33,295 nucleotides of DNA from contig JACCZX010000113.1 of assembly GCA_013695705.1 (NCBI GenBank), positions 1 to 33,295 on the forward strand. The letters are read 5' to 3'. The notes under the pieces were generated by a model. That model was not told the origin of the DNA and did no database searches. It was given only the letters and a program-made list of their open reading frames with translations. The position numbers were made by a program, and so were the translations under genes. The stretch is from Burkholderiaceae bacterium (GTDB lineage: Bacteria; Pseudomonadota; Gammaproteobacteria; Burkholderiales; Burkholderiaceae_F). Below are positions 9,861 through 33,295 of the stretch, piece after piece; position 1 is the first letter of the stretch, and every line of letters starts with the position of its first letter.

Positions 9861-10964
9861 CTACACGTTGAAGCGAAAATGCATCACGTCGCCGTCGCGC
9901 ACAACGTAATCCTTTCCTTCGAGTCGCATCTTGCCCGCATCCTTGGCGCCGCCCTCGCCCTTGAGTTTGACGTAATCCTCGAAGGCGATCGTCTCCGCGC
10001 GTATAAATCCTTTTTCGAAATCGGTGTGAATCACGCCCGCTGCCTGCGGCGCGGTGGAACCGGTAATCACGGTCCAGGCGCGCACTTCCTTCGGCCCGGC
10101 GGTGAAGTACGTAAGCAAACCAAGCAAGGTGTAACCGGCGCGAATCACCCGGTTCAACCCCGGCTCCTGCATTCCCATGTCCGCCAGAAAAATCGCCATG
10201 TCCTCCTCGGCTAGATCAGCAATTTCCGCTTCGATTTTTGCGCAGGCGGCCACCACAGGCGCGTTCTCTTTTGCCGCGTGATCGCGAACTTGATCGAGCA
10301 GTGGATTGTTCTCGAAGCCGTGCTCCTCGACATTGGCAACATACATCGTCGGCTTGTCGGTCAGCAGGAATAGCGGACGAATGATTGCGCGCTCCTCTGG
10401 ATAAAGATCGACGCTGCGCACTGGGCGTGCCTGATTGAGCACCGGCAGGATTTTTTCAAGCGCGTCGACCAGGCGCCGGGCCTCTTTCGCTTCCAGACCC
10501 TGGCCCGATTTCGCCACCTTGATGTTCTTCGCAAGCTGTTTGTCCACAGTGGCCAGATCGGCCAGCGCGAGCTCGGTGTTGATGACGTCGATGTCGGATA
10601 TCGGATCGATTTTGCCCGCTACGTGCACGACGTTCGGATCTTCGAAACAACGCACAATGTGCGCAATCGCGTCGCACTCGCGAATGTTGGCAAGGAACTG
10701 ATTGCCAAGCCCTTCGCCTTTGCTGGCGCCCGCAACCAACCCGGCGATGTCGACGAACTCCACCGCGGCCGGGATGACTTTATCGGGCTTCGCAATCGCA
10801 GCGAGCGCGCGCAGGCGCAGGTCGGGAACTTCGACGATGCCGACGTTGGGCTCGATGGTGCAGAACGGATAATTCTCCGCAGCGATGCCCGCCTTGGTGA
10901 GCGCGTTGAACAGCGTTGACTTGCCCACGTTCGGAAGTCCGACGATGCCACATTTGACTGCCAT
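9861..10964 (-). CDS. ychF: Redox-regulated ATPase YchF (OBG family)
   Basis: [87 protein letters not shown]. Confidence 0.97.
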
Positions 10965-24146: not shown

Positions 24147-25073
24147 CTACCCGCTCATCTGCTGTTGCTGGCGATTTAGAAAGTCGCGCATCGTGTCGAT
24201 TCCGCGCAATTGCAAAATGGTGTTGCGCACTGCGGCTTCCGTCAGCACTGCGAGGTTGCGACCGGAGGCGACTGGTATCAGCAACTTGCGAACCGGTAAG
24301 CCAAGGACGTCTTCGGATTGCCCTTCGAGCGGCAGCCGTTCGAACGTGTCGGCGCCGCCATAGCGTCTCAGCTCGACGATCAACCTGAGCTTCATTTTTC
24401 GCCGCACCGCTGTTTCGCCGAATATGGCCTTGATGTCGAGCAATCCCAGGCCGCGCACTTCGAGCAAATTCGCCAGCAGATGTGGGCAGCGGCCTTCGAT
24501 GGTGTCGGGCGCAACGCGAGAAAAGTCGACGACGTCGTCGGCTACCAGGCCGTGGCCGCGACTGATCAGCTCGAGTCCGAGCTCGCTTTTACCGACGCTC
24601 GATTCTCCGGAGATCAACACGCCCATACCGAGTACGTCCATGAACACGCCGTGCATCGTGCAATGCTGGGCCAGCAATTTGGCGAAATAGATGCGAAGCA
24701 CTTCGATCACGGTGGCGGCAGGCAGCGGCGATCGCAGCATTGGTAGCCCAGTCTGATCGGCCATGATCTGCAGCGCTGCAGGCGGCGCTAGATTCTCGGC
24801 GATGATCAATCCGATCGGCCCGCCGGTAGTCAATTCACGAGCGTAATGTTGCCAGCGCGTCGCCTCCATTTCGCTGTAGTAACCAACTTCGGCATGGCCG
24901 AGGACATGCAGTCGAGCAGGGTGAATCGGATTCAGAAAGCCGACCAGATCGGGACTTGCCAGGCCCGCGGTGACGGGCGTAATCAACGGCTTGCTCGCAG
25001 CGGAAATTCCCGCCACCCATTCAAGTTTCAGCGCTTCTCGGTTTTCATCCAGTAGCGATTGAAACGTCGGCAT
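24147..25073 (-). CDS. hprK: HPr kinase/phosphorylase
   Basis: GVFMDVLGMGVLISGESSVGKSELGLELISRGHGLVADDVVDF, LEVRGLGLLDIKAIFGETAVR signature. Confidence 0.96.
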   Translation of the reverse strand: MPTFQSLLDENREALKLEWVAGISAASKPLITPVTAGLASPDLVGFLNPIHPARLHVLGHAEVGYYSEMEATRWQHYARELTTGGPIGLIIAENLAPPAALQIMADQTGLPMLRSPLPAATVIEVLRIYFAKLLAQHCTMHGVFMDVLGMGVLISGESSVGKSELGLELISRGHGLVADDVVDFSRVAPDTIEGRCPHLLANLLEVRGLGLLDIKAIFGETAVRRKMKLRLIVELRRYGGADTFERLPLEGQSEDVLGLPVRKLLIPVASGRNLAVLTEAAVRNTILQLRGIDTMRDFLNRQQQQMSG

Positions 25074-25123
25074 GATGCGAGGCTACGCCAGCTGATCAAA
25101 CGACGCCAGGCCGCACTCGGCTA

Positions 25124-25594
25124 TCAGGCAGCGGGACGGATTGATTCCCAGCTCGACAATGCCGCGTGCACCATCGTGGCGTCGGTCGCTGACATTAGAG
25201 CTTCGCGAAACGGTTTGTCGGAGAGCATCTGCGTCAACTCCGAAAGAATATCGAGGTGTTGCTGCGATGCCTGCTCGGGCACCAGCAAGAAAAACATCAG
25301 TGATACGGGCTGGCCGTCGGGCGCGTCGAATTGGATCGGTTCGGCCACCCTAACGAATGCCGCAATCGCTTCCTTCATGCCTTTGATACGGCCATGCGGA
25401 ATTGCAACGCCTTGGCCGAGACCAGTGGAGCCAAGCCGTTCGCGTGCGAACAAGCTGTCGAATACCTTTGAATGCGCTACCGCCTGATTATTTTCAAACA
25501 GCAGGCCGGCCTGCTCAAACGCGCGCTTCTTGCTTGAAGCGGGTAGGTCGAGCAGTACATTGGAGACAGGCAGGATGCGAGAAATAAGGTTCAT
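25124..25594 (-). CDS. ptsN: PTS IIA-like nitrogen regulatory protein PtsN (EIIA-Ntr)
   Basis: EIIA domain: LFARERLGSTGLGQGVAIPHGRIKGMKEAIAAFVRVAEPIQFDAPDGQPVSLMFFLLVPEQASQQHLDILSELTQML. Confidence 0.94.
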   Translation of the reverse strand: MNLISRILPVSNVLLDLPASSKKRAFEQAGLLFENNQAVAHSKVFDSLFARERLGSTGLGQGVAIPHGRIKGMKEAIAAFVRVAEPIQFDAPDGQPVSLMFFLLVPEQASQQHLDILSELTQMLSDKPFREALMSATDATMVHAALSSWESIRPAA

Positions 25595-25783
25595 GGGAAA
25601 GGGCGGAAAGACGAGACGAGGCTCGATGTTGCAAAGCGTAGAGGCTTCAAACGGCGACGATCAGGCGGGAAGAAACGAGTTCTGCTTCCTTTTTAACTTG
25701 GCTGTGTAGGGCGCCCGTCGATAGAAAGGCGCGGATGCTACACCGTCGTCAAGGCTTCTTCGGTTAGTAACCAAACGCACGAG

Positions 25784-26116
25784 CTACTGCGATTGTTGAC
25801 CCGCGGCCTGATGTTTTAGCGAGTCGGCGTGATGGTCCTTGACCTTGTCCTTGTGGCGAATGACCTGCCGGTCGAGCTTGTCGACCAGAGTGTCGATCGC
25901 GGCGTACATGTCGTCTTCGATTGCTTCTACATGAATGCTGTTGCCACGCACGTGCAGTGTGATTTCAGCACGGTGGCGCACTTTTTCGACGGTTAACTGC
26001 ACGCTGGCATCGATCACCTGATCAAAGTGCCGCTCGATGCGGGTGAGCTTGCCGGCGATGTGATTGCGCAGCGCTGCCGAGACTTCCATGTGGTTACCGT
26101 GAATCGTAAGGTTCAT
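25784..26116 (-). CDS. hpf: Ribosome hibernation-promoting factor HPF/YfiA family (short form)
   Basis: MNLTIHGNHMEVSAALRNHIAGKLTRIERHFDQVIDASVQLTVEK...YAAIDTLVDKLDRQVIRHKDKVKDH. Confidence 0.94.
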   Translation of the reverse strand: MNLTIHGNHMEVSAALRNHIAGKLTRIERHFDQVIDASVQLTVEKVRHRAEITLHVRGNSIHVEAIEDDMYAAIDTLVDKLDRQVIRHKDKVKDHHADSLKHQAAGQQSQ

Positions 26117-26181: not shown

Positions 26182-27693
26182 CTACAACGTCTTGCGCAGC
26201 GCTACGGACGGAATCTTCATTGCTTCGCGGTATTTTGCGACTGTGCGACGTGCGACAACAATGCCTTGTTCGCCCAGCAGTTCTGCGAGCTTGCTGTCCG
26301 AAAATGGAATGCGAATATCCTCAGCTCCAATCAGCTGCTTGATCAGTGCGCGGATCGCGGTGGATGACGCGGCACCCCCGGTTTCGGTTGCCACGTGACT
26401 GCCGAAAAAGTATTTGAGCTCAAAAATGCCGAACGGCGTTGCCATGTACTTGTGGGCGGTGACCCGGGAAATGGTCGATTCGTGGAGCTCGACAGTGTCT
26501 GCAATCTCGCGCAGGACCAACGGCCGCATCGCAATCGCACCGTGCGTGAAGAAGTTGTGCTGGCGATCGACAATCGCCTGCGATACTCGCAATATTGTCT
26601 CGAACCGCTGCTGAATGTTGCGGATCAACCAGCGCGCTTCCTGCACGCGGGTAGTCCATTTGCCGCGTTCGGCAGGGTCTGCTCCGAGCCGGGTTCTGTC
26701 CTTCTTCAGCACGTCGGCAAACGACTGGTTCACCCTCAAGCGGGGCATCACGTCCGGATTAAGCAACGCCGTCCAGCGATTTTTTACTTTGCGCACGAAC
26801 ACGTCGGCCACGATGTAGTCCGCACGATTATCGGCAAACGCTGTACCCGGACGCGGGTTCAAGGTGCGAATCAGCCGGTGCGCAGCGCGCAATTCTTCAT
26901 CGCTGCAGGCTAACGCTTTGCGCAACTTCGAGAACTCCCGCGCGGCCAGAAGTTGCAGGTGCTCTTGAACGATGCGGCGCGCCAGTGTGAAGATGGCCGC
27001 TGCAATATCGTGCCCATTTTTTGCAGGCGAGCGGGCTGATGCTCGTTCGAGCGCTTGCAGTTGCAGCAGCAGACATTCGGCAGCGTCGCGAGCGCCTACG
27101 CCGGTGGGCTCGAGGCTTTGCAGCAGGCGCAGCGCGGTCAGCAGTTCCTCCGGTTCGACGGTTGCTTCAGGCGGGCACATCGCGTGCAGTTCATCGAGTG
27201 TTGGATGCAGGTAGCCGTCGTCATCAAGCGCTTCGACCAGAAATTCGACCAGCGCACGATCTCGCGGCGACGCCTGGCACGCGATCTGCGCCCGCAAATG
27301 CTCGCGCAATGACAGCGTGGTGCCGGCCCAGTTGAGCGGGCTGCTGTCGTCCTCATCGGCGGCATCGCTGGTGCCACGCCACTCGATCAACGAATTGCCG
27401 TCCAACGGGCCATCTTGTCGATCGCCAGCGTCCGCTGGCGCGGGAGCGTCATGCCCGTTCAATAACTCGGGCGTCGCCACCGGCACATCGACTGCAATCG
27501 AACCGTCTGGTTTTACCCGCATTGCAAGGGCTTGCGGATCGTCGTCGCGCTCGAGCAGCGGGTTATCCGCCAACGCCTGGTCAAGCTCCTGATTAAGTTC
27601 GAGCGTCGACAGCTGCAGTAATCGGATCGACTGCTGCAACTGCGGTGTCAGCGCCAGATGCTGCGACAGCCTGAGCTGAAGACTGGGTTTCAT
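26182..27693 (-). CDS. rpoN: RNA polymerase sigma-54 factor RpoN
   Basis: [38 protein letters not shown]-terminus; C-terminal RpoN box [22 protein letters not shown]. Start at 27693 chosen over the longer ORF. Confidence 0.97.
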
Positions 27694-27841
27694 ACCTTGC
27701 GTCGCTCGTGTACGCGAGCCTTCGGCTCGCACTTGCACTCGCGACGACTAGTCAGGCGCGCGGGCTTTGGGCGGCCGGGCGCTCGCGCGCGGAACAAAAG
27801 CAAGCAAATGACAACGCTCGGCATGCTCCACATGGTCGCAG

Positions 27842-28633
27842 CTACATCCGAAAGTGTTCGCCCAAATAGACCCGTCGAACGGTTTCGTTGCCGACGATCT
27901 CTTCGGGCCGACCGGCGGCCAGGACAACGCCTTCGTTAATGATGTAAGCGTGGTCACAAATACCAAGCGTCTCGCGCACGTTATGGTCGGTCATCAGCAC
28001 GCCGATGCCGCGCTCTTTTAGAAATCGAACAATGCGTTGAATTTCGAGCACTGCGATCGGATCGACGCCTGCAAAGGGTTCGTCGAGCAAGATAAAGCGC
28101 GGTCGCGAGGCCAGCGCGCGCGCTATTTCGACACGGCGCCGCTCACCACCGGAAAGCGAGAGTGCCGTATTGGTACGCAGATGAGCGATCTGCAGGTCGC
28201 CGAGCAAACCATCAAGGCGCTCCGAAATCTCCGATCGACGCAGCGGCCGGTTGTTTTGATCGACCTGCAGTTCCAACACCGCCCGAACGTTTTCTTCCAC
28301 CGTCATCTTGCGAAACACCGACGCTTCTTGCGGCAGGTAAGAAATTCCCATACGCGCGCGACGGTGGATCGGCAGATGTGAAATCGATACGCCATTTAAG
28401 GCAATCTGACCGTCGTCATGCGGCACCAATCCAACCACCATGTAAAAACACGTGGTCTTTCCCGCGCCGTTCGGTCCCAGCAGCCCCACAACTTCGCCGC
28501 TTTTCACGCTCAGCGAAACGTCTTTGACGACGGTGCGACTGCCGTAACGCTTCTGCAGATTTTCAACCACCAGCGTGTTGCGCTCAATCGATGATGCCTG
28601 CATCACGATTGGTTCGACCAGATCTGCCTCCAT
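27842..28633 (-). CDS. lptB: LPS export ABC transporter ATP-binding protein LptB
   Basis: GLLGPNGAGKTTCFYMVVGLV, LSLSGGERRRVEIARALA, FILLDEPFAGVDPIAV. Confidence 0.96.
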   Translation of the reverse strand: MEADLVEPIVMQASSIERNTLVVENLQKRYGSRTVVKDVSLSVKSGEVVGLLGPNGAGKTTCFYMVVGLVPHDDGQIALNGVSISHLPIHRRARMGISYLPQEASVFRKMTVEENVRAVLELQVDQNNRPLRRSEISERLDGLLGDLQIAHLRTNTALSLSGGERRRVEIARALASRPRFILLDEPFAGVDPIAVLEIQRIVRFLKERGIGVLMTDHNVRETLGICDHAYIINEGVVLAAGRPEEIVGNETVRRVYLGEHFRM

Positions 28634-28648
28634 GCGGTCGTTGAATTC

Positions 28649-29257
28649 CTATTGGCGCCGCGGGCTGGCGAGATCGGTTGACGGGGCCAAAATAGCCTTC
28701 GATCCGGCTGGCACCGACTCGGCGCGCGGCGCGATCGTGCCGCGCACGCGACCGTCCGGATTGTTCGGATCGGTCGATGGTTTGCCGCCGGAAACAAAAT
28801 ATTTTGAATTGCGCTGATCATAGGTAATTGCATCGCCGCGCAATTCGTCGCGCTGCACTTCGTTTTCGAGCAATCGAACGCGCGCACGTGTAGTCAGCTT
28901 GACGCTATCTTCACGTTCATCGTATTCGATACGCTCGGCATAGCCCTCGACGAACTCTTCGAGCCCAGGTTTACTGCTGTCGCGACGTTGACGAAACGTT
29001 GCCAGCTTTCCCGGTGCCGCGACGATGACGCCATACTGATAGCCCTCGGGGTCTTTGCGCACCTGGACTCGCTCGCCGGCCGCGCGCATAGTTCCCTTCG
29101 ACAACATGACGTTGCCGACCAGTACGCACACTTGCTTCAGGTCGTCGCACTCGCCGCTGTCTGCTTCGTAGTTCAGAGGCTTGGAGCGGTCGGCCTTTTC
29201 GGCGACCGCGGGTGAGACCGCGACTGCAAACAGCAGGGCCGATATCCAGTTTTTCAT
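28649..29257 (-). CDS. lptA: LPS transport periplasmic protein LptA
   Basis: Signal peptide, OstA-like domain (DRSKPLNYEADSGECDDLKQVCVLVGNVMLSKGTMRAAGERVQVRKD); position between lptB and lptC. Confidence 0.92.
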   Translation of the reverse strand: MKNWISALLFAVAVSPAVAEKADRSKPLNYEADSGECDDLKQVCVLVGNVMLSKGTMRAAGERVQVRKDPEGYQYGVIVAAPGKLATFRQRRDSSKPGLEEFVEGYAERIEYDEREDSVKLTTRARVRLLENEVQRDELRGDAITYDQRNSKYFVSGGKPSTDPNNPDGRVRGTIAPRAESVPAGSKAILAPSTDLASPRRQ

Positions 29258-29847
29258 TGCGCTGCCTCAATCGGTGGTGCGGTCGCCGCAATCGTGCCGC
29301 GCACCTTCGAGCGAAACTTGACGGTGCGCTCGACGTTGTCGTAATCCATCCCGATCGAGCGCACCACCGAGTCACCGCGCTCGACTTCCACTGCGGCGTC
29401 GGTTGAATACTGATCCAGGTCGGGCACCGCAATCAGGCGCTGAGTGCGAAGGCGCATCGGCGGCGCTCCATCCTTACCCGGCGCGCGAGTAATTACCACG
29501 TCGCCGCTTAACAGCACGCGCTCACCGCCGCCTTCGACCAATGCACTTTTCGAACGCGCCTCGAGCAGCGGCTGGCCCGGCCGCAGGCTGATCAGTCGCG
29601 GTTGCACCAGCTCGGAGCGATCATCGGCGGCGAAATGCGCCAGCTCGCCAGCGTGTAGCCGATTGGTTGCGCGCCCGGTGTCGTCGAACTGGGTGAGCGT
29701 GACACCTTTGGCGACGAAGTCGGGGCCCTCGCGTGACACCGGACTCGATATTTTTTTCAAGCGTGCCGACTGCGAATACCAGTAGCTCACGCCGGCCAGA
29801 GACGCAAGCAGCAGTATTGCGACGAACGCCGTGATCCGATCCTTCAT
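29254..29847 (-). CDS. lptC: LPS export protein LptC
   Basis: Single N-terminal TM then LptC-type domain (PDFVAKGVTLTQFDDTGRATNRLHAGELAHF); 4-bp overlap with lptA and kdsC. Confidence 0.9.
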   Translation of the reverse strand: MKDRITAFVAILLLASLAGVSYWYSQSARLKKISSPVSREGPDFVAKGVTLTQFDDTGRATNRLHAGELAHFAADDRSELVQPRLISLRPGQPLLEARSKSALVEGGGERVLLSGDVVITRAPGKDGAPPMRLRTQRLIAVPDLDQYSTDAAVEVERGDSVVRSIGMDYDNVERTVKFRSKVRGTIAATAPPIEAAQ

Positions 29848-30386
29848 GCGAGCCTTTCCGAGGCATCGGGATCAACACCCTTCGCGCGCAGGATGAACTC
29901 GGCGAGTCCCCGCACCGCGCCGTGGCCGCCATTTTGTGCAGTGATCCAATGGGCCGCCTCCTGCGCTGCGGCGCAGCCATCGGCAACGGTGACGGCAAAC
30001 CCGGCGGCGCGCATTGCCGGCAGGTCGAGCAGATCGTCGCCGATATAGCCGCTTTGGTCGGCGGCGATCGCTGTGTCAGCGAGCAATGTTGCAAACGCAC
30101 TGGCCTTGTCCGACCGGCCCTGCAGCACACGCACGACTCCGAGCTCGCGCGCGCGTGCCGCAACGATGTCGGAACTGCGCGCCGACAACCAGGCGACCTC
30201 GACGCCGTTTGCCATCAGCATCTTAATGCCGTGCCCGTCGCGCACGTTGAACACCTTGATTGTTTCGCCCTGCGCTGCGAAGTAAAGTCGCCCGTCGGTC
30301 AGCACGCCGTCGACGTCGAACACCATTAGACGCACGCGTGCAGCGCGCTGCTCGGCTGTCACGGAGCTTTCGATACCAGACTTCAT
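29844..30386 (-). CDS. kdsC: 3-deoxy-D-manno-octulosonate 8-phosphate phosphatase KdsC
   Basis: HAD motif VRLMVFDVDGVLTDGRLYF; GHGIKMLMANGVEVAWLSARSS; IGDDLLDLPAMRAAGFAVTVADG. Confidence 0.95.
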   Translation of the reverse strand: MKSGIESSVTAEQRAARVRLMVFDVDGVLTDGRLYFAAQGETIKVFNVRDGHGIKMLMANGVEVAWLSARSSDIVAARARELGVVRVLQGRSDKASAFATLLADTAIAADQSGYIGDDLLDLPAMRAAGFAVTVADGCAAAQEAAHWITAQNGGHGAVRGLAEFILRAKGVDPDASERLA

Positions 30387-30397
30387 CTGATGAGCGC

Positions 30398-31384
30398 CTA
30401 GATGACCTTCGCCGCCAGCAAATCGGGCATGCTCAGTGCGCCGACTAATTTGCCGTTGTCAACCGCCAGCAATACGTTCTTGCGGCTGGCATCCATCGTC
30501 TGCGCTGCTTCTGCCGCCAGCACTCCGGGTGAGATCGTCAGCGGATCGCGCGTCATCACTTCAGCGACCTGAACGTTACGCACGTCGCCGATTTTTTCGA
30601 GCAGGCGCCTCAGATCACCGTCGGTAAAAATGCCACTGAGCAAGCCCCGCTTGTCGACGATTGCGGTCACGCCGATTTGCTTGCGCGTGATCTCGTGCAA
30701 GGCGTCCATTACGGTCGCGTCGGGGCCGACGATCGGAATGCGGTCATCGGTGCGCATCACGTCGCGCACATAAGTCAAAAGCTTCCTGCCCAGCGCGCCG
30801 CCAGGGTGCGCGCGTGCAAAATCCTCGGGCCCGAATCCGCGCGCATCGAGGCACGCAATCGCCAGCGCGTCACCCATCGCCATCATCGCCGTGGTTGATG
30901 ATGTGGGCGCAAGATTGAGCGGACACGCCTCCCTTGCAACACGGACGTCGATATGCACGTCGGCCAGCTTTGCCAACGCCGACAGCGCGTTACCCGTAAA
31001 CGCGATCAGCGGCGTGCCCAGGCGTTTTGCGATTGGCAACATCGTCAGCAATTCATCTCCTTCGCCTGAGTACGATAGGGCCAGCAAAACGTCTCCCTGC
31101 GTAATCATTCCAAGATCGCCATGAGCAGCTTCGGCCGCGTGCAAGAACAGTGACGGTGTACCGGTCGATGCCAGCGTAGCCGCGATCTTGCGCGCAATGT
31201 GCCCCGTCTTGCCGACGCCGCTGACGACGACGCGGCCCTTGCACGCCAGTAAAAGATCGACTGCCTTGGAGAACGCATGATCGATGCGATCAGCCAGTGC
31301 GGTGATCGCCTGCGCTTCGATGTGCAGAACCTCGCGCGCCAGCGCAAGCGCGCCCGGGGTCGCAACAAGGCTCAATTCACTCAT
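30398..31384 (-). CDS. kdsD: Arabinose-5-phosphate isomerase KdsD (SIS + 2xCBS)
   Basis: GRVVVSGVGKTGHIARKIAATLASTGTPSLFLHAAEAAHGDLGMI (SIS) and CBS repeats; start at MSELSLVATPG (31384), not the 480-aa ORF start. Confidence 0.94.
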   Translation of the reverse strand: MSELSLVATPGALALAREVLHIEAQAITALADRIDHAFSKAVDLLLACKGRVVVSGVGKTGHIARKIAATLASTGTPSLFLHAAEAAHGDLGMITQGDVLLALSYSGEGDELLTMLPIAKRLGTPLIAFTGNALSALAKLADVHIDVRVAREACPLNLAPTSSTTAMMAMGDALAIACLDARGFGPEDFARAHPGGALGRKLLTYVRDVMRTDDRIPIVGPDATVMDALHEITRKQIGVTAIVDKRGLLSGIFTDGDLRRLLEKIGDVRNVQVAEVMTRDPLTISPGVLAAEAAQTMDASRKNVLLAVDNGKLVGALSMPDLLAAKVI

Positions 31385-31432
31385 AAAAATTCGATCGTCC
31401 AAGGCCGGCGATAATACACCGCCACTTTCTTC

Positions 31433-31448
31433 TGGCACGGGTCTTGCT
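31433..31448 (+). promoter_or_regulatory. Sigma54 (-24/-12) promoter element upstream of Kef-type antiporter
   Basis: TGGCACG (31433-31439) - GGTC - TTGCT (31444-31448); GG-N10-GC spacing exact; matches TGGCACG-N4-TTGCW at every position. Confidence 0.75.
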
Positions 31449-31521
31449 CTAGGCGCGCTGCGCCGGAGCGGGGAGTTTTCTGCAACCGCAATGTGTTGAC
31501 GGACGTCCTGCCGCCGCATCC

Positions 31522-33295
31522 ATGACATCAGGTCTCGAGTTCGCACTGTTGCTGCTTGCGTGCGCCGTCGTCGGTGTCGTCGCGTTTCGTCTGTTGCATC
31601 TGCCGCCGTTGCTCGCGTATCTCGCGGTCGGCATTTTGATCGGCCCCCACGCACTGGCATTGCTGCCCGATAGCGCGGACACGCGCTATCTCGCGGAGTT
31701 CGGCGTCGTCTTCCTGATGTTCTCGATCGGCCTCGAGTTTTCGTTGCCCAAATTGCGAGCGATGCGGCGCACCGTGTGGGGGCTCGGTGGTGCGCAGGTG
31801 GTGCTGACGGTTGTGGTGACTCTGCTGACGGGATGGGCAATCGGCCGCTATTTCAATGTAGGGCTGGTCGGTGCGTTTGCGCTCGGCGGCGCACTTGCCA
31901 TGTCATCGACCGCTATCGTGATGAAGACGCTGGCCGAGCGCGCGCAACTCGATAGCGAGCACGGCAAGCGCATCGTTGGCGTGCTGTTGTTTCAGGACCT
32001 CGCCGTCGTTCCGCTGCTGGTCATAGTGCCGGCGCTTGGAGCCGAAGCTGGCGGGCTCGCGCAAACCCTGGTCATCGCGCTGTTAAAGGCCGCGGTCCTG
32101 CTGGCGCTGCTTCTCGCCGGAGGGCAGCGCGCGATGCGCTGGTGGTTCCACCTCGTCGCGCAACGCAGATCGCAGGAGCTTTTCACGCTCAACCTGCTGT
32201 TCGTAACGCTGGGGCTGGCGTGGCTGACCGAGATCGCCGGGTTGTCGCTGGCGCTCGGCGCGTTCGTGGCTGGCATGCTGATTTCTGAAACTGAATTCAA
32301 GCATCGCGTCGAAGAAGACATCAAGCCGTTTCGCGACGTGCTGCTGGGGCTGTTCTTTGTCACGATCGGAATGCTTCTCAACGTGCAAGTTGTACTCGAC
32401 AACCTGGGCTGGGTATTGCTGGCGTTGGTCGTGCCGGTGTCGTTCAAGTTCACCATGATCTTCGCGCTGGCGCGCGTCTTCGGCGCACCTGCGGGCACTG
32501 CGATCCGCGCTGCGCTCGCACTGGCCACGGCCGGCGAGTTTGGATTTGTATTGCTCGGTCAGGCGGGCGGCCTGGGCCTGATCGACGATCTGGTGCTGCA
32601 GATCGTGCTGGCAGCGATGCTGCTTTCGATGCTGGCCGCGCCGCTGTTGCTGCAGTATTCCGATCGCATCGTGGTGCGGCTGGTCGCATCGGAATGGCTG
32701 CTCAAGTCGGTGCAGATCGCCAGCATCGCTCAGCGCGCGATCGCGGTCGACAAACACGTGGTGATTTGCGGCTTCGGCCGCAGCGGACAGCATCTGGCCA
32801 AAATGCTCGAGCAGGAAAACATTGCGTTTGTAGCGCTCGATCTCGACGTGGATCTGGTGCGAGAAGCCGCCGGCGCTGGAGAATCGGTCGTCTACGGCGA
32901 CGCGGGGCGCCGCGAAGCGCTTGTCGCGGCGGGCATAACGCGCGCTGCAGCCTTGGTCATTACGTACGCCGATACACATTCCGCATTGAAGGTGCTGAAT
33001 CACATGCACGAATTGGCGCCGACGTTGCCTGTCATTGTGCGAACACAAGATGATCATGATCTTGACCGGCTGACGCGCGCGGGCGCGACCGAGGTCGTTC
33101 CTGAAATCCTCGAGGGCAGTTTGATGCTCGGCTCGCACGCGTTAGTACTGCTCGGGGTGCCGCTGGCGCGCGTTGTCAGGCGCGTGCGTGAGGCTCGTGA
33201 TCAGCGCTATCGAATGTTGCGCGGGCACTTCCACAGCAGCATCGGAGACGACGACGATGCGATCGACGATGATGCGCACGAGCGGTTGCATTCGG
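31522..33295 (+). CDS. Monovalent cation:proton antiporter-2 (CPA2/KefB-KefC type) with TrkA-N domain; 3' truncated by window
   Basis: My translation: MTSGLEFALLLLACAVVGVVAFRLLHLPPLLAYLAVGILIGPHAL...FGVVFLMFSIGLEFSL...HVVICGFGRSGQHLAKMLEQENIAFVALDLD...; open to the window end, so absent from the ORF track. Confidence 0.95.
   Translation, partial: MTSGLEFALLLLACAVVGVVAFRLLHLPPLLAYLAVGILIGPHALALLPDSADTRYLAEFGVVFLMFSIGLEFSLPKLRAMRRTVWGLGGAQVVLTVVVTLLTGWAIGRYFNVGLVGAFALGGALAMSSTAIVMKTLAERAQLDSEHGKRIVGVLLFQDLAVVPLLVIVPALGAEAGGLAQTLVIALLKAAVLLALLLAGGQRAMRWWFHLVAQRRSQELFTLNLLFVTLGLAWLTEIAGLSLALGAFVAGMLISETEFKHRVEEDIKPFRDVLLGLFFVTIGMLLNVQVVLDNLGWVLLALVVPVSFKFTMIFALARVFGAPAGTAIRAALALATAGEFGFVLLGQAGGLGLIDDLVLQIVLAAMLLSMLAAPLLLQYSDRIVVRLVASEWLLKSVQIASIAQRAIAVDKHVVICGFGRSGQHLAKMLEQENIAFVALDLDVDLVREAAGAGESVVYGDAGRREALVAAGITRAAALVITYADTHSALKVLNHMHELAPTLPVIVRTQDDHDLDRLTRAGATEVVPEILEGSLMLGSHALVLLGVPLARVVRRVREARDQRYRMLRGHFHSSIGDDDDAIDDDAHERLHS

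Follow-up and report, generated by a model that had tools for sequence, protein, structure and literature searches.

In E. coli, sigma54-RNA polymerase (RNAP) represses sigma70 promoters whose sites overlap its own. The effect was shown in living cells as well as with purified components, and a C at −12 is common to all of the repressive sigma54 motifs (PMC4551910). A survey published in 2025 took the sigma54 promoters of rpoN genes as evidence of RpoN autoregulation (PMC12316311). At the protein level, E. coli PtsN controls K+ efflux by binding directly to the CPA1 antiporter YcgO (PMC11808508).

Here we analyze a 33,295-nt stretch of DNA (hereafter the window) from the 483-contig draft assembly of a Burkholderiaceae bacterium, in which a 16-bp sigma54-type element separates the kdsD-rpoN-ptsN operon from a divergent gene for a Kef-type antiporter (kef). 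Like the class I/II cases of E. coli (e.g., argT, chaC, mdfA, and patA; PMC4551910), the element has a −24/−12 motif with C at −12 inside a sigma70 footprint, and binding competition is the mechanism proposed there as well as here. Unlike those cases, it is divergent, is a candidate promoter for the gene opposite, and the operon predicted to be repressed encodes RpoN. As in the survey (PMC12316311), rpoN would be under the control of its own product, on the evidence of promoter motifs; the sigma54 promoters there are said to transcribe rpoN, whereas the window element points away from it and would repress. The first-pass annotation had proposed a nitrogen-PTS/potassium circuit, which would resemble PtsN-YcgO (PMC11808508) in linking the nitrogen PTS physiologically with a K+/H+ antiporter. 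PtsN acts there by protein contact with a CPA1 protein, whereas ptsN is linked with this CPA2 Kef-type antiporter by gene neighborhood only; the part of the proposal that stands is a kef gene behind a conserved sigma54-type promoter. In a limited literature search, we found no paper on kef under sigma54 or on the promoters of the kdsD-rpoN operon.

The element and the genes around it

The element TGGCACGGGTCTTGCT carries all 12 consensus bases and fits YTGGCAYR-N4-TTGCW with correct GG-N10-GC spacing, its end lying 73 nt from the antiporter ATG at 31522. The first-pass annotation had described this full match, its spacing, its distance, and its orientation toward the antiporter, and re-reading of the sequence bears out each of these. 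The pattern TGGCAYRNNNNTTGCW has one exact match in the window, namely this site. Given the base composition, one would expect 0.026 exact matches across the window, 9e-5 within the 137-bp kdsD-kef intergenic region, and 2.3 genome-wide; the genome holds 3. When up to two mismatches are allowed, the window shows no excess (21 matches vs. 19.7 in shuffles). Because the genome-wide count is near expectation, the match alone is merely suggestive, and it is conservation that decides.

Table 1. Features of the kdsD-kef locus in the window and of contig C166 (locus L034) of the same genome.
Feature	Coordinates	Strand	Basis or remark
hpf, ptsN, hprK (downstream of rpoN)	24147..26116	−	Translations
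rpoN (sigma54)	26182..27738	−	NCBIfam NF004598, 702 bits, above cut-off
kdsC, lptC, lptA, lptB	27842..30386	−	Translations; gaps ≤15 bp or overlaps
kdsD (arabinose-5-phosphate isomerase), first gene of the operon	30398..31384	−	Translation
kdsD-kef divergent intergenic region, 137 bp	31385..31521		Read from the sequence
Putative −10 hexamer of the kdsD operon promoter, TATTAT	31411..31416	−	TATCAT in most relatives; TATGAT in kef-less g4
Candidate −35 hexamer of the kdsD promoter, GTGCCA	31433..31438	−	Occupies the sigma54 −24 box, as its reverse complement
sigma54 promoter element, −24 TGGCAC / −12 TTGCT	31433..31448	+	Faces kef; 12/12 consensus bases
Kef-type CPA2 monovalent cation/proton antiporter with C-terminal nucleotide-binding region (RCK/TrkA-N type)	31522..33294	+	Reaches the window end
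Contig C166: activator	956-2335	−	Name from translation
Contig C166: sigma54 site	2906-2921	−	
Contig C166: sigma54 site	10608-10623	+	

Apart from rpoN, kef, and ntrC, the genes are named from our reading of the translations. We take the first gene of the operon to be kdsD from family knowledge and gene order, and the names kdsC, lptC, lptA, lptB, hpf, ptsN, and hprK are likewise assumed from family knowledge. The order behind the kdsD promoter is kdsD-kdsC-lptC-lptA-lptB-rpoN-hpf-ptsN-hprK. Gaps are small as far as lptB and widen to 103–148 bp between lptB and rpoN, where rpoN may have its own promoter. No strong sigma54 match precedes rpoN itself in the lptB-rpoN gaps of 15 genomes, as judged by rough scores in which the N positions were counted. 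The listed rpoN reading frame may begin 15 codons before the likely start (ATG 27693), with model matches beginning at residue 16.

The antiporter matches the NCBIfam KefC, KefB, and CPA2 models with E values of 1e-69 to 1e-106, all below the curated cut-offs. As it scores 357 bits against a cut-off of 752 for the KefC equivalog and 338 against 804 for KefB, we call it CPA2 Kef-type only and do not claim glutathione gating. A 99% identical copy of its C-terminus lies at a contig end in the same genome (G000, C475:3-608) and is probably an assembly duplicate of the window end.

Conservation and loss in the window's family

The first-pass annotation had suggested scanning orthologous kdsD-kef regions for the element. 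Such a scan finds it upstream of kdsD in 23/23 non-degenerate genomes of the window's family (f1), spanning at least 10 genera, and a variant of it in 5/5 genomes of a second family (f3), while it is absent from the 32 other families sampled. The element is carried by each of the 19 f1 genomes that have kef at the locus, and by four genomes of genus g4 without kef there. The earlier identification of a sigma54-type promoter before a Kef-type antiporter near rpoN and ptsN is thus upheld, both in conservation and in orientation toward kef. In a KdsD tree, the element is found on the deepest f1 branches (g1 and g3), which makes it ancestral to the family.

When the 23 f1 sites are aligned, TGGCA and TTGC (nine unambiguous consensus bases) are invariant, position 6 is only C or T, position 7 only A or G, and position −1 only C or T. 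The N4 spacer varies, and the flanks retain about 0–0.5 bit per column. An invariant core, Y/R degeneracy, and drifting flanks together reproduce the sigma54 consensus itself. A chance match would agree with the near-expected genome-wide count, but it is ruled out by a core that stays invariant across 23 f1 genomes while the flanks drift.

These data also bear on the idea that the element is no RpoN site at all and instead an extended −35, or the site of another kdsD regulator, with an accidental likeness to sigma54 promoters. It does overlap the putative kdsD −35 (see below), and RpoN binding here is predicted from sequence alone. We nonetheless consider this reading very improbable: the conserved positions coincide exactly with the sigma54 set, down to the Y/R degeneracy, the Y at −1, and the unconserved N4, and TTGC falls outside any −35. 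Further, genomes whose RpoN is diverged or missing lack the site while keeping the kdsD −10. An ATGATA-type hexamer (the kdsD −10) is present in many f1 genomes without the sigma54 site.

The genomes without the site belong to host-type genera in which both the element and the antiporter at this locus have been lost, and in which RpoN is diverged or absent. Among the 16 site-less f1 genomes searched for RpoN, it is diverged in 13 (35–43% identity) and absent in 3, and these genomes have no kef at E ≤ 1e-100 either. In the KdsD tree, the sampled site-less genomes (g5, g6, g9, g14, and g17) form one nested clade; for the site-less genera g2, g11, and g16, the upstream regions were read and left out of the tree. 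Absence of the site where RpoN has diverged or been lost supports a genuine RpoN promoter, but the host clade contributes a single, correlated loss, which counts against that explanation. In the host-type genomes G010, G024, and G034 (g9), rpoN is not detectable; in sister genera, KdsD is still about 60% identical, with RpoN at 35–43%.

Overlap and fixed spacing with the divergent kdsD promoter

On the operon strand, GTGCCA-16-TATTAT is the sole sigma70-like match in 8.1 kb (9/12). Taken overall, the scan yields no more than chance predicts (2 matches vs. 2.2 expected), so the weight of the kdsD promoter call rests on conservation. From the sequence, GTGCCA is the best candidate for the −35 of a divergent sigma70 promoter of kdsD. 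In 23/23 f1 genomes, the site has an ATnATA hexamer (TATnAT on the opposite strand) 16–19 bp away. The mean distance from site to kdsD −10 in f1 is 17.4 ± 1.1 bp; that from site to kef start is 56 ± 22 bp, with anything from 28 to 96 bp separating the site from the antiporter ATG. The two f1 promoters thus share base pairs (31433–31438 in the window), and the spacing between them is held in both f1 and f3. Since the −24 box doubles as the kdsD −35, the element is as relevant to the operon encoding RpoN as it is to kef. The first-pass annotation had read it from the antiporter side; a conserved sigma54-type promoter does face kef, but the overlap with the kdsD −35 was missed. We regard this overlap with the promoter of the kdsD/RpoN operon as the more interesting feature of the locus, ahead of a potassium/nitrogen circuit.

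On consensus promoters, sigma54-RNAP settles into a stable closed complex, which stays silent until opened by an activator. We hypothesize that RpoN holoenzyme binds the element as a promoter directed at kef. Because the −24 half and the kdsD −35 are the same base pairs, the two polymerases could not occupy the region together. Without an activator, the closed complex of RpoN-RNAP would compete with sigma70-RNAP at the kdsD promoter and damp the rpoN-bearing operon, giving negative feedback on RpoN to the extent that transcription from the kdsD promoter reads through into rpoN. With an activated enhancer-binding protein, RpoN-RNAP would open and transcribe kef. Orientation and the f3 data favor the kef output; overlap, fixed spacing, and retention of the site without kef favor operon repression. 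On balance, we think it probable that the element is a genuine RpoN promoter for kef that is mutually exclusive with the sigma70 promoter of RpoN's own operon. If so, one 16-bp element would tie together RpoN level, LPS-export genes, the nitrogen PTS, and a K+/H+ antiporter, and the locus would be a compact and testable example of one site, contested by two RNA polymerases, at which sigma54 both represses and activates. The element is a concrete candidate mechanism for RpoN feedback, readable from conservation in uncultured bacteria.

A simpler view is that the element is a plain sigma54 promoter for kef alone, with the −35 overlap a packing coincidence that has no effect on the operon. The site is oriented toward kef, and no f1 or f3 genome that has kef at the locus lacks it. 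This view is weakened by the spacing, which is tight to the kdsD −10 and loose to kef, and by the four kef-less g4 genomes (G005, G021, G032, and G075; loci L152–L155), which retain the exact site (16/16 identical) after kef has gone from the locus. The flanks of these four sites are also 74% invariant (149/201). As the four form one clade, they represent one loss event, which is supportive of a role for the operon without being decisive. A membrane protein gene that we take to be BPSS1780-like now adjoins the site in these genomes, having its place behind kef in G077 and G078, and the retained site could serve this downstream gene.

In f3, TGGCATCAnnNTTGCA faces kef in 5/5 genomes, with rpoN in the same gene run. 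The site there, TGGCATCA-N3-TTGCA, matches 11/12 consensus bases in all five genomes and lies 27–29 bp from the kdsD −10, approximately one helical turn beyond the f1 distance. The f3 −10 is TATACT with a preceding TGC (extended −10), and the site shares no bases with the kdsD −35. Autorepression is therefore not needed for conservation in f3, which favors the view that the element serves kef alone; weighing both sides, we consider that view unlikely, although it is a serious contender. For the preferred reading, the two spacings allow a more specific form, which we put forward tentatively as a possibility: a two-way switch in which the closed complex represses the kdsD-lpt-rpoN-ptsN operon and the activated form transcribes the antiporter, with the two promoters kept on a fixed helical phase, ~17 bp apart in f1 and a further turn apart (~28 bp) in f3. 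At the f3 loci (L021 and L233–L236), a conserved GGCTATCAT-N(6-7)-AGTATAGCAAA block adjoins the kdsD −10.

The Kef tree does not place f3 as the sister of f1, so the trait was either gained twice or is of older date and was lost. The divergent kdsD/kef pair itself is found across the order (e.g., in Cupriavidus, Massilia, and Paraburkholderia), with the same gene pair upstream of kdsD, but a comparable sigma54 element is lacking in the 32 sampled families and in nearly all named loci. In those 32 families, represented by 1–2 genomes each in which kef is nearly always divergent from kdsD, no site scores 11 or 12 of 12, so the circuit proposed in the first-pass annotation does not hold as a general one; among named Burkholderiales loci outside f1, L086 alone reaches 11/12. 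The combined overlap pattern was matched in 20/399 genomes of the order. Five of these are f1 matches (the window's own genome, G005, G019, G021, and G032) and correspond to this locus, and the other 15 are about as many as we expect by chance.

Activators and the genome's other sigma54 sites

The genome encodes the machinery that a sigma54 promoter would use, with rpoN in the window and four full-length sigma54-activator domains (PF00158), one of them in a clear NtrC. An enhancer site had been predicted to lie within the kdsD coding sequence, and our analysis does not bear this out. Synonymous-site conservation in kdsD codons 1–90 shows no excess (0.48–0.56 vs. 0.51–0.59 elsewhere), and NtrC-, NifA-, PilR-, and IHF-like motifs within approximately 350 bp of the site are no better than in shuffles, with none conserved. 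The activator site may be distant, unspecific, or of another type.

The lack of a conserved enhancer site leaves kef activation without a required part, which counts against the preferred reading as well as against a promoter serving kef alone, and lends some weight to the opposite alternative, namely that the element is only an autorepressor site, where sigma54-RNAP represses its own operon at the kdsD promoter and makes no kef transcript. Overlap and fixed spacing, the retained g4 sites, and the precedent for sigma54 repression (PMC4551910) agree with this alternative. So do the very short predicted sigma54 leaders of kef, 2–16 nt in some genomes if +1 is placed 26 bp after the site start, which likewise speak against the preferred reading; as a test for a leaderless or Shine-Dalgarno signature of kef, the Shine-Dalgarno matches are weak, equally so in site-less relatives, and thus uninformative. 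Repression alone is nevertheless improbable, as all five f3 genomes have the site facing kef without shared −35 bases, and the orientation is constant, though a repressor site needs none fixed.

The genome's other two exact sigma54 sites lie together on one 12-kb contig (C166; Table 1), beside an AtoC/NtrC-type activator. Their neighbors are small stress-type membrane genes (YmgE/GlsB-like, DUF883-like, holin-family, and BON/OsmY-like), followed by a fumarase-like gene. Judging from its gene content, the region resembles a sigma54 module for envelope or osmotic stress. Contig C461 carries an activator similar to the one on C166.
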